From Gemmatimonas sp. (GTDB lineage: Bacteria > Gemmatimonadota > Gemmatimonadetes > Gemmatimonadales > Gemmatimonadaceae): a DNA stretch of 64,000 nucleotides. The notes beneath the pieces were generated by a model. It made no database searches. It was not told the DNA's origin and saw nothing but the letters and a program-made list of their open reading frames with translations. Below are positions 36,139 through 52,273 of the stretch, in pieces (position 1 is the stretch's first letter; every line of letters begins with the position of its first letter). Location: assembly GCF_027531815.1 (NCBI RefSeq), contig NZ_JAPZSK010000002.1, positions 372,001 to 436,000 of the forward strand. Reading direction: 5' to 3'. A program made the position numbers and the translations under genes.

Positions 36139-37184
36139 GCGGTTGCCGCGCGCTCCGCCGCCGCGCGCTCCGCCGCCGCGCGCACGGCCGCTGGCGAGAG
36201 ATCGCGCATGCAGCGCCAGTGCCCCAGGGGGCACTGCATGGGGCCGTGCGCATGACAGGGGCGGCAGGGCAGGGTGTCGTGCTGCACCACGACCTGCCGC
36301 TCGGCCAGCGGCCCGAATCCGAGTGCGGGGACCGTAGGGCCGAAGAGCGCCACCGTGGGGGTGTTCATGGCGCTGGCGAGGTGGAGGGGCGCCGAATCGT
36401 TGGTGACGAGCACGCGGCAGCGGGCCAGCAGCGCCGCTGATCCGAGCAGTGACAGGCGCCCCGTGGCATCGATTACGGACGGCGCCCCCACGTTGCGTGC
36501 GGCGGCGGCAATGGCGGCGGCGAGCGGCGCATCGCCCGCGGCGCCCAACACCACCAGACGTGCGTTGGGCAGTGCGGCGGAGCGCACCAGCTCCGCGGCG
36601 AGAGCGTCGAAAGACGGCCAGCGCTTGGTGGCCCACACGCTGCCGGGGGCGAGGGCGACCAGCGTGTCGCCGTCGTGAACGTCGTGCATGGCCAGCAGGG
36701 CCGCCACCGCGGCCTGCTCGCGCTCCCCGGGAAACAGCGACGGGCGAAGTGGCGGAGGTACCGTGGGCTCACCGGGGGCATTGGCAAGCTGCCACAGGCG
36801 CGCGGCGTGATGCAGCGACGGCTGGTATGGTACCCGCCGCGTGGTGAAGAGACGCCCACCGCTGGTGTCGAACCCGATCCGTTCCGGGATGCGCGCCAGG
36901 AAGGCCAGCGCGGCGGTGCGGTTCGAGCCCTGCGCCAGAAAGGCACGCTGCGCCCCCACCGCCCGCAGGCGCCTGGCCACCCGACGCAGCCCGCTCACCC
37001 CGCGGTCGGCGCCGCGCTTGTCGAACACGATGACGCTCGCCACGGCGGGGTGGTTGGCCAGCAGCGCCGCATTCGCCGGGGTGCCCACCACATGCACAAG
37101 GCCCTCACCAGCCAGCCGCTCGAGGAGCGGGGTGGTGAGGACCATGTCGCCGAGAAACGAGGTCTGGAGGACGGCGGAGATCAT
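36132..37184 (-). CDS. Glycosyltransferase family 9 (ADP-heptose:LPS heptosyltransferase)
   Basis: Transfers ADP-heptose to the lipopolysaccharide inner core. The 350-aa protein has the GT9 N-terminal TSFLGDMVLTTPLLERL, central GSVWATKRWP, LLARCRVLVTNDSAPLHLASAMNTP with the catalytic/ligand loop, and VALFGPT. Between these lies a C-terminal cluster of cysteines and histidines (LPCRPCHAHGPMQCPLGHWRC). The final residues are an AAAERAAAERAAT tract caused by a GC-rich repeat at 36150-36180. ATG at 37184; the intergenic repeat at 37205-37266 separates it from lepA. An LPS-bearing outer membrane is implied. Confidence 0.9.
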   Translation of the reverse strand: MISAVLQTSFLGDMVLTTPLLERLAGEGLVHVVGTPANAALLANHPAVASVIVFDKRGADRGVSGLRRVARRLRAVGAQRAFLAQGSNRTAALAFLARIPERIGFDTSGGRLFTTRRVPYQPSLHHAARLWQLANAPGEPTVPPPLRPSLFPGEREQAAVAALLAMHDVHDGDTLVALAPGSVWATKRWPSFDALAAELVRSAALPNARLVVLGAAGDAPLAAAIAAAARNVGAPSVIDATGRLSLLGSAALLARCRVLVTNDSAPLHLASAMNTPTVALFGPTVPALGFGPLAERQVVVQHDTLPCRPCHAHGPMQCPLGHWRCMRDLSPAAVRAAAERAAAERAATAQ

Positions 37185-49570: not shown

Positions 49571-49639
49571 CCGCGGGGGATCATTCCGGACCGGCAGGCC
49601 GTTGTTTTGGTATCCCTGTCCCCGCTATCCTTTAAGGCT

Positions 49640-51481
49640 ATGGAAATTCGCAACGTCGCCATCATCGCGCACGTCGACCACGGGAAGACCACCCTCGTCG
49701 ACAAAATGCTCCGCCAGGCCGGAGCCTTCCGCGAAAATCAGGTCGTCGAAGAACGCGTGATGGACTCCAATCCGCTCGAAAAGGAGCGGGGGATCACCAT
49801 TCTGGCAAAGAATACCTCCATCCGGTGGAAGGACACGAAAATCAACATCGTGGACACGCCGGGGCACGCCGACTTCGGCGGCGAAGTGGAGCGCATTCTG
49901 CGCATGGTGGACGGGGTACTGCTGGTCGTCGACGCCTTCGACGGCCCCATGCCGCAGACGCGATTCGTGCTGCGCAAGGCGCTGGAACTCGGGCGCACGC
50001 CCATCATCGTCATCAACAAGATCGACCGTCCGGGTGCCGACCCGCTCCGCGTGCACGACGAGGTGCTCTCGCTCTTCATCGAGCTCGAGGCCACCGAGGA
50101 GCAGCTCGACTCGCCGGTGGTGTACTGCTCGGCCAAGAACGGCATTTCGACGCTCGATCTCGACCAGGAAGCAGTGGACTTCGAACCCCTGTTCGAAACC
50201 ATCGTCAAGACGGTCCCGCCGCCGCCGACCGACAAGGACGGCCCCTTCCAGATGCTCGTCTCCACGATCGACTACTCGGCCTATCTCGGCCGCATGGCAA
50301 TCGGGCGCATCGAGCGCGGCATGGTGCACATGGGGGACAGCATCACCCTCGTCACCCCCGACAACAGCGCCGCGCCCGTGCGCGGCCGTGTCACGAAGCT
50401 GTACGGCTACGAAGGGCTCGAGCGCGTGGAAATCCAGGAGGCGTCGGCAGGGGAAATCGTGCTGCTCGCCGGCTTCGAAAACGTGGACATCGGCACCACG
50501 CTCACCGATCCCAACACGCCGGAGGCGCTGGAAGGGATCAGCGTGGAGGAACCCACGATCAGTGTCGACTTCGTGGTGAACAATTCCCCCTTCGCCGGCA
50601 AGGATGGGAAGTTCGTTACCTCGCGGCAGATCCGTGAGCGGCTCTACAAGGAGCTCGAGCGCAACGTGGCGCTGCGGGTGGAAGACAGCGACACCACCGA
50701 CGCCTGGAGTGTGTCGGGGCGTGGGGAGCTGCACCTGTCCATCCTCATGGAGACGATGCGGCGCGAAGGGTTCGAGTTCCAGGTGTCGCGCCCGCGCGTG
50801 ATCACCCGCATCGACGACAACGGCCAGAAGCTCGAGCCCTTCGAGGAGCTCGCCATCGACGTGCCCGAGGACTATCTCGGCGTGGTCATCGAGAAGCTGG
50901 GCCCCCGAAAGGCCGAGATGATCGAAATGAAGAACCCGGGGCAGGGGCTGGTGCGCCTGCTGTACCGCGTGCCGGCGCGCGGGCTCTTCGGCTACCGCTC
51001 GGAGTTCCTGACCGATACGCGCGGGACGGGCATCATGCACCACCGGTTCCTGGAGTACGGGCCGTGGGCGGGGCCGCTGTCGGGGCGCTCGCGCGGCGTG
51101 CTGGTGTCCATGGAAAACGGCACCATCATCGCCTTTGCGCTCTTCTCGCTGCAGGAGCGTTCGACGCTCTTCGTCACCCCGGGCGATGCCGTGTATGAGG
51201 GCATGCTCATTGGCGAGAACTCGCGTCCGGGAGACATGGACGTGAACCCCTGCAAGGAAAAGAAGCTCACGAACATGCGCTCCAAGGGCGCGGACGAGGC
51301 CATCGTGCTGGAGCCGCCCCGCCAGATCACCCTCGAAAGCGCCCTCGAGTACATCGAGGATGACGAGCTGATCGAAGTCACCCCGCAGAGCATCCGCCTG
51401 CGCAAGCGCATGCTGGCCGCCAGCGACCGCAAGCGCGTCACGCGCGAAGTCAAGCGCGAGCGGGACCGCGCCTCGGCGTAA
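49640..51481 (+). CDS. typA: Translational GTPase TypA/BipA
   Basis: A ribosome-binding GTPase needed for 50S assembly and stress growth at low temperature. The 613-aa protein carries G1 [10 protein letters not shown]2 ERGITIL, G3 DTPGHADF, G4 NKIDRP, the TypA-specific [20 protein letters not shown] and the C-terminal [21 protein letters not shown] chose the ATG at 49640, which begins [16 protein letters not shown] as in the family. Upstream, TTGTTT and TATCCT 18 nt apart end only about 10 nt before the ATG and could be its promoter, giving a very short leader. Confidence 0.96.
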
Positions 51482-51510
51482 CCCCCCGCCTCCGCTGCCG
51501 CAGTCACCAT

Positions 51511-51539
51511 CCGGGCCCAGCCGATCACGGTGGGCCCGG
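51511..51539 (+). terminator. Hairpin after typA
   Basis: A 9-bp stem (CCGGGCCCA/TGGGCCCGG) with an 11-nt loop, 30 nt after the typA stop. No clear T-run follows. Supported by position and stem strength. Confidence 0.5.
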
Positions 51540-51671
51540 GTTCGCGTCCGGGTGCGTTTTTCGGGGTGTCGGTGCGTTGTGTCGGCTTGCGCCCTGCGCG
51601 TCGCCTGCCGATACTCCCGCACAGCAGGCACACGCGTGCCCTTTCTTTCACACTCGCAGGAGAATCGTCCC

Positions 51672-51953
51672 ATGTTGGAGCTGTTCGGGTCGTCGTCGAT
51701 GGACGCGCTCGAAGAGAAGGTGCAGTCGTCGGTCTTCATGCTCGCCGCCGACGACGAGGAGTTCGATGACGAGGGCTTCGACGAGGATGATCTCGACGAG
51801 GACGAGGACGAGGACGACGTCGATTTCGACGATGACGACGATCTCGACGACGAGGACGACGACGATCTCGACGACGACGACGACGACGAGGACGACGACT
51901 ACGACTTCGACGAGGACCTCGGCTACGGCGACGAGGACGACCCCGACGCGTGA
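51672..51953 (+). CDS. Extremely acidic small protein (Asp/Glu tail)
   Basis: A 93-aa protein. The first 26 residues form a short amphipathic segment (MLELFGSSSMDALEEKVQSS, then VFMLAA). From residue 27 on, 51 of 67 residues are Asp or Glu, interrupted only by single F, L, V, Y, G or P. Predicted pI is extremely low. A GGAG lies about 10 nt before the ATG and a terminator follows, so it looks like a real gene and not a coding accident, although low-complexity GAC/GAG repeats can also produce open frames by chance. Calcium binding, nucleic-acid mimicry and a chaperone-like anion tail are all possible; none is shown by the sequence. Confidence 0.7.
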   Translation: MLELFGSSSMDALEEKVQSSVFMLAADDEEFDDEGFDEDDLDEDEDEDDVDFDDDDDLDDEDDDDLDDDDDDEDDDYDFDEDLGYGDEDDPDA

Positions 51954-51995
51954 GCGTGCGTCGCGTATCCCTCGTGGGATACCGGCGGAGGGAAG

Positions 51996-52019
51996 ACGGG
52001 CGACCTCAGGGTCGCCCGT
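51996..52019 (+). terminator. Terminator of the acidic-protein gene
   Basis: A 10-bp stem (ACGGGCGACC/GGTCGCCCGT) with loop TCAG, 43 nt after the stop, followed by TGTGCGTTT. Confidence 0.75.
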
Positions 52020-52092
52020 TGTGCGTTTCCCGGAGGCGTCGTCCTGGCTGAGCTCCGGCCACGGGGAGAGCAAGGAAAAGCGGGCTGCTCCC

Positions 52093-52121
52093 TTTACTCG
52101 AGCCCCCACCGGGGATACATT
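52093..52121 (+). promoter_or_regulatory. Predicted promoter for tRNA-Ile
   Basis: TTTACT (52093-52098) and TACATT (52116-52121) are separated by exactly 17 nt, about 45 nt upstream of the tRNA. Moderate matches to the sigma-70 consensus (4/6 each). Confidence 0.5.
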
Positions 52122-52166
52122 ATGCGGCTCTGGTGGATTGGCACCCCGGTTCGGGTGTCTGGCACC

Positions 52167-52240
<74 letters not shown>

Positions 52241-52273
52241 CTGATCGGTTCGTCGCATTTCGCACAGGTACGC

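Follow-up and report, generated by a model that had tools for sequence, protein, structure and literature searches.

A hyperacidic protein gene that follows typA in six of eleven sampled families of Gemmatimonadota, and its possible role as a disordered polyanion beside TypA

The closest described counterparts of the protein reported here are disordered proteins of eukaryotes and bacteria. Prothymosin alpha, a eukaryotic chaperone of histone H1, is about the same size as our protein. It is highly acidic (net charge -44; PMC11592313), as ours is, and it is disordered and free-standing, features that ours would share. The delta subunit (RpoE) of bacterial RNA polymerase, as described in passages of PMC7749165, carries a disordered, polyanionic C-terminal region of similar charge (net -47), ahead of which residues 1-90 fold into an N-terminal domain that docks on RNA polymerase; the two precedents show that such charged chains can work. 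CrsL, a protein of actinobacteria with CarD and RNA polymerase as binding partners, is small and disordered and is found at rRNA promoters and tRNA genes; the passages of PMC12709188 that say so do not call it acidic, and place its gene in an operon with otsA. On the side of ribosome assembly, PMC6962249 reports that BipA is conserved in many bacteria, that it is involved in L6 incorporation, that a bipA deletion is suppressed by L20 expression, and that its precise mechanism in 50S assembly is incompletely understood. The titles and abstracts listed in searches of open-licence papers contained nothing on the gene described below and none that joined Gemmatimonadota with typA, and E. coli has no small annotated gene directly 3' of bipA.

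We analysed a 64,000-nt stretch of a Gemmatimonas genome (the window), in which a gene for a hyperacidic protein lies between typA/bipA and a tRNA-Ile gene. The features of the locus are as follows.

49640..51481, plus strand: typA/bipA, with its start taken at ATGGAAATTCGC
51534..51553, plus strand: hairpin resembling a terminator in the typA-acidic gap, with weak support (terminator scan)
51658..51662, plus strand: AGGAG Shine-Dalgarno sequence, nine bases before the ATG
51672..51953, plus strand: gene for the hyperacidic protein, 93 aa (translation; relatives compared)
51672..51749, plus strand: N-terminal segment of 26 codons, conserved in the genus, with M1 L2 E3 G6 S7 S8 D11 A12 L13 E14 invariant in 20 aligned sequences
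51750..51950, plus strand: Asp/Glu tract with dispersed F/Y/L/V, ending in GYGDEDDPDA
51995..52020, plus strand: strong hairpin 3' of the acidic gene, with a weak T tract (folding)
52167..52241, plus strand: tRNA-Ile (GAT)

The translated protein (MLELFGSSSMDALEEKVQSSVFMLAADDEEFDDEG...GYGDEDDPDA, 93 aa) has 51 Asp/Glu (40 D, 11 E) among the 67 residues from residue 27 onwards and a calculated net charge of about -54 at pH 7; an earlier sequence-only reading had given the same frame, the same count and an upstream Shine-Dalgarno, all of which were borne out. Among 1780 stop-to-stop segments of the window it is the only one of its kind, with 26 D/E in 30 residues compared to 12 in the runner-up. 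In 2.0 Mb of a genome from another family (G108, f5), 35,560 segments were 20 aa or longer, and 3 of them reached 21 or more D/E in 30. Neither Pfam nor NCBIfam returned a match to the window protein up to E 1, it matched 0 PHROG families of described phage proteins, and four of its relatives matched no NCBIfam model. A single-sequence AlphaFold2 model had a mean pLDDT of 57 and a pTM of 0.12 and returned no secondary structure, a low-confidence result that is weakly consistent with disorder.

Set against the described systems, the protein resembles the delta C-terminal region in its charge and would resemble it in its putative disorder, but it has only 26 residues ahead of the acidic tract, and these showed no family match that would indicate a folded domain of the delta type. 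It differs from prothymosin alpha in the hydrophobic residues dispersed through its acidic tract and in being bacterial; the likeness lies in size, charge, free-standing form and putative disorder. Its likeness to CrsL, a protein from another phylum, is that of a small bacterial protein with disorder, which is predicted in our case.

Comparison within the genus showed that the open reading frame (ORF) is a real gene, as the earlier reading had thought it looked, and that it is under selection to remain acidic. The N-terminal segment was present in 23 of 30 genus genomes. One copy (G018) is cut by a contig end so that only its start is visible; the 22 complete copies, of 90 to 111 aa, all retain the start, the frame and both termini, with few substitutions at the termini (for example MLEQCGSSS in L022 and DALEG in L020). 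Assembly gaps likely explain the seven missing genes: six of these genomes also have no typA match (G002, G008, G015, G022, G023, G027), and in the seventh (G014) the contig stops 43 nt after typA. True loss of typA and the acidic gene is conceivable in G008, G022 and G023, which are 96%, 91% and 93% complete. Across eight genus pairs chosen for comparison, some of which share members and are not all independent, and with gap columns set aside, third codon positions of the tail accounted for 144 differences, first positions for 15 and second positions for 11; the codon changes were 106 synonymous, 32 D/E swaps and 18 other. Wobble bases were mixed (GAC 689, GAT 388, GAG 152 and GAA 78 among 1671 tail codons), and the longest pure (GAC)n was 7. 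The concentration of changes at third positions, together with these short runs, argues for selection on the protein and against a drifting repeat. A broken frame, a lost start or unconserved first 26 codons had been named beforehand as signs against a gene. None of these was seen within the genus, but outside it the first 26 codons were unrecognisable: an N-terminal profile run against 395 phylum genomes found 20 genus genomes and one chance-like match in G137.

The region from -19 to +45 of the gene is almost invariant in 20 genus loci, synonymous sites included, and we considered a conserved RNA element there. Mean commonest-codon frequency in these loci was 0.979 over the 12 codons at the acidic start versus 0.748 over 195 invariant typA columns. 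In the control, the same measure at gene starts was 0.970 for EF-Tu (19 of the 20 loci given) and 0.973 for the acidic gene (22 loci), and 0.956 for typA, where only 9 of 19 loci fitted the start pattern. The RNA element was dropped because EF-Tu and typA starts are about equally conserved at synonymous sites; folding of the start region was also ordinary (z about 0). Conservation at about the level of EF-Tu would fit strong expression. Mean identity from -20 to -1 was 0.959 in 22 genus loci, compared to 0.850 for typA and 0.761 for EF-Tu, which may reflect only a good Shine-Dalgarno and strong expression. A shared leader or regulon was likewise rejected: the genome of the window has a single exact occurrence of the leader pattern, and four other sites carry 3 mismatches.

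The earlier reading had placed the gene in a single-gene unit near typA and tRNA-Ile, closed by a clean terminator. The hairpin at 51995-52020 is indeed strong (46-nt fold of -28.7 kcal/mol, z -3.7), but its T tract is poor, and neither the terminator scan nor separate terminator criteria called it, so that the clean terminator was borne out only in part. By those separate criteria, 4 of 22 genus loci, the window excepted, have a terminator-like site 3' of the acidic gene, and 3 of 22 have one in the typA-acidic gap; the gap spans 111-273 nt in the 20 genus loci measured. The neighbourhood itself held, with tRNA-Ile 3' of the gene in 21 of 22 genus loci, whereas elsewhere the arrangement is often typA-operon-like (see below), and in the window genome the gene may form a transcription unit of its own. 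Pfam identified the neighbours checked as PdxA, TypA and a pullulanase.

Three further observations concern the surrounding DNA. The string TACATTAT at 52116-52123 precedes tRNA-Ile and is found 3' of the acidic gene in several other loci of the genus; it may be the -10 region of the tRNA-Ile promoter. An open frame of 704 aa on the minus strand (49625-51739) runs antisense to typA and reaches into the acidic gene; it is probably a GC-rich mirror frame. A tandem repeat of a 15-base unit (GCCGCGCGCTCCGCC; 3.1 copies, 93% matches) lies at 36145-36191.

Beyond the genus, we surveyed synteny in a sample of the 326 of 395 phylum genomes with a BipA_C match, covering families f1-f11; the loci read comprised 22 typA hits, 30 best typA matches, 40 chosen from the matches listed and 30 chosen genomes. 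The ORF was scored as present when a segment on the strand of typA, starting no more than 700 nt from the typA stop, held 18 or more D/E in 30 residues; a genome was judgeable if the ORF was seen or if at least 500 nt downstream of typA lacked it. G329 (149 nt downstream), G362 (267 nt) and G371 (contig ending inside typA) were left out of the count, while G296 was included despite having less than 500 nt since its ORF was seen, a small bias towards presence. Outside the genus, 65 of 106 judgeable genomes carried a hyperacidic ORF within 0.75 kb downstream of typA: 29/29 in f1, 12/12 in f2, 5/5 in f3, 6/7 in f4, 9/9 in f6 and 4/10 in f7. It was absent from the judgeable genomes of f5 (0/26), f8 (0/3), f9 (0/2), f10 (0/1) and f11 (0/2), 0/34 in total. 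The window's genus scored 8/8 under the same criterion. Six of the eleven sampled families thus keep the ORF after typA. Homology across families is inferred from position, layout and composition, not from alignable sequence. Profiles of the acidic protein missed seven genomes that bear the gene (G172, G065, G125, G179, G235, G296 and G342), two of which, G065 and G125, were rows of the query alignment, so that absence by profile is uninformative, including for 59 f5 genomes.

With starts chosen by script, at most 60 nt separate the typA stop from the acidic start in 32 of the 65 copies outside the genus (16/29 in f1, 11/12 in f2, 5/5 in f3), which makes the gene a likely member of the typA operon in many genera; none of the 19 copies in f4, f6 and f7 starts so close, their gaps being 68 to 737 nt. 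A tRNA-Ile or 16S motif lay 3' of the ORF in 42 of the 65 genomes that have it (16S motif in 17, tRNA-Ile core in 25), as against 0 of 41 judgeable genomes without it in the stretch read after typA. This difference suggests that typA, the acidic gene and the tRNA/rRNA genes may be inherited as a block, so that the acidic gene could be linked with the RNA genes instead of typA. Loci at which 16S follows the acidic gene within the stretch read include L064, L068, L072, L091, L103, L109, L125 and L153, and many of these contigs end there. A search of complete genomes for small-subunit rRNA (SSU) matched 9 of 15, two only in pieces or shortened, and says little outside the genus; among its 13 loci a hyperacidic ORF lay near 16S only at L233 (G112, f1).

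The two f5 genomes read beyond the typA locus carry a Trp-rich acidic ORF with a YigZ-like gene (UPF0029+DUF1949) on its downstream side (L239 1471-2295; L290 937-3352). The ORF in G125 (L239 1471-1674) precedes that gene, with tRNA-Ile 1.35 kb further on. In G108, of which 2.0 of 4.1 Mb was covered, a similar ORF (L290, about 3352-3071, minus strand) exceeds all others of the 35,560 segments in acidity and is followed by a rhomboid gene and the YigZ-like gene. This context is possibly a second translation-related neighbourhood, and from composition and layout we infer that these ORFs are homologous to the typA-linked copies. The next most acidic G108 segments start at L258 9936 and L311 2, both on the plus strand; judged by eye, they resemble, with their acidic stretches, a ribosomal protein of the S6 type and a protein with an S1 domain.

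The 65 non-genus proteins measure 64-170 aa and contain 39-68% D/E, again with script-chosen starts. Their spaced hydrophobic residues are mostly L/F/Y in f1-f3 and often W in f4, f6 and f7 (as in DDWDDEDW). In shuffling tests, which ignore relatedness of the proteins, adjacent hydrophobic pairs numbered 37 versus 118 expected, below all 200 shuffles, and the spread of hydrophobic gaps was 2.99 versus 4.41 expected, also beyond all 200. The genus proteins had 5 adjacent pairs versus 39 expected, and their gap spread was no different from expectation. Many f1 copies end in DLIDLDDEYD..RP.PG..Y[DE][DE], compared with GYGDEDDPDA in the window, and 7/12 f2 and 5/5 f3 copies close with a basic patch, then W, then one or two further residues. 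Since both termini diverge between genera, a specific docking surface is not evident. We also looked for co-evolution with the basic C-terminal tail of TypA, and dropped the idea because neither length nor charge of the tail differed clearly between genomes with and without the acidic neighbour.

We propose that the acidic protein is a disordered polyanion that chaperones basic components of the ribosome or translation machinery alongside TypA. This reading is favoured by the translational neighbours of the gene and by the role of BipA in 50S assembly linked to L6 and L20; we give it a probability of about 35%. The protein would be intrinsically disordered and free-standing, with spaced hydrophobic residues, and would shield or deliver such components, either r-proteins of basic character or regions of nascent 50S particles that carry positive charge. 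It would share a process with TypA/BipA, a GTPase of ribosome assembly, and act through fuzzy, charge-driven binding in fast exchange, as prothymosin alpha does with histone H1. The link to TypA is carried by gene order alone and is absent in f5, f8, f9, f10 and f11. More tentatively, the genes may form an undescribed family of free-standing polyanions, old within the host's class and encoded between typA and tRNA/rRNA, whose product would be a disordered ribosome-assembly chaperone, a bacterial counterpart of the prothymosin type and a missing partner of TypA/BipA.

Somewhat unlikely, and the best of the alternatives, is a role in transcription, in which the polyanion would displace nucleic acid from RNA polymerase as the acidic tail of Bacillus delta does, for example near strongly transcribed rRNA and tRNA genes. 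Its charge is comparable to that of the disordered delta region (about -54 versus -47, the latter from passages of PMC7749165), and the difference in downstream tRNA-Ile/16S between genomes with and without the ORF (42/65 versus 0/41) fits such a role. The lack of a folded domain for docking on RNA polymerase argues against it, as do the single-contig genus genomes G020, G028 and G029, where over 200 kb separate the acidic gene from the 16S genes found; tRNA-Ile still adjoins the acidic gene there.

A nucleoid role is improbable. As a DNA mimic, the polyanion would occupy the DNA-binding surfaces of basic nucleoid proteins, for which its size and charge are suitable. The sole match among solved structures, to an acidic stretch of a PC4 and SFRS1-interacting protein / IWS1 homolog chain, points the same way but is at chance level (E 0.64). 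To our knowledge DNA mimics are folded proteins, whereas AlphaFold2 gave no confident structure for the window protein, and the neighbours identified by Pfam (PdxA, TypA, a pullulanase) also count against this role.

We consider buffering or binding of Ca2+ or Mg2+ more improbable yet. Asp-rich chains generally bind divalent cations. G. phototrophica needs much calcium (PMC9862903), but the main text of that source contains none of the strings 'hypothetical', 'aspart' or 'typA'. The window protein matched no EF-hand or RTX family in Pfam up to E 1 and shows no RTX glycine pattern on reading, and metal binding would leave the linkage to typA, tRNA and rRNA unexplained. Least credible by far is the earlier suggestion that a GAC/GAG microsatellite opened the frame by chance: tandem repeat calls do span 51749-51948, inside the ORF, but the frame and termini kept in all 22 complete genus copies, the mixed wobble bases, the (GAC)n limit of 7 and the third-position bias of changes contradict it.

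Returning to the chaperone reading, the presence of the acidic gene beside typA in several families of the phylum makes its product a concrete, testable candidate for a BipA partner. The survey also indicates that gene order can trace genes of low complexity where the sequence profiles used here fail. If the proposed role is true, it would suggest that bacteria too use free disordered polyanions as assembly chaperones.
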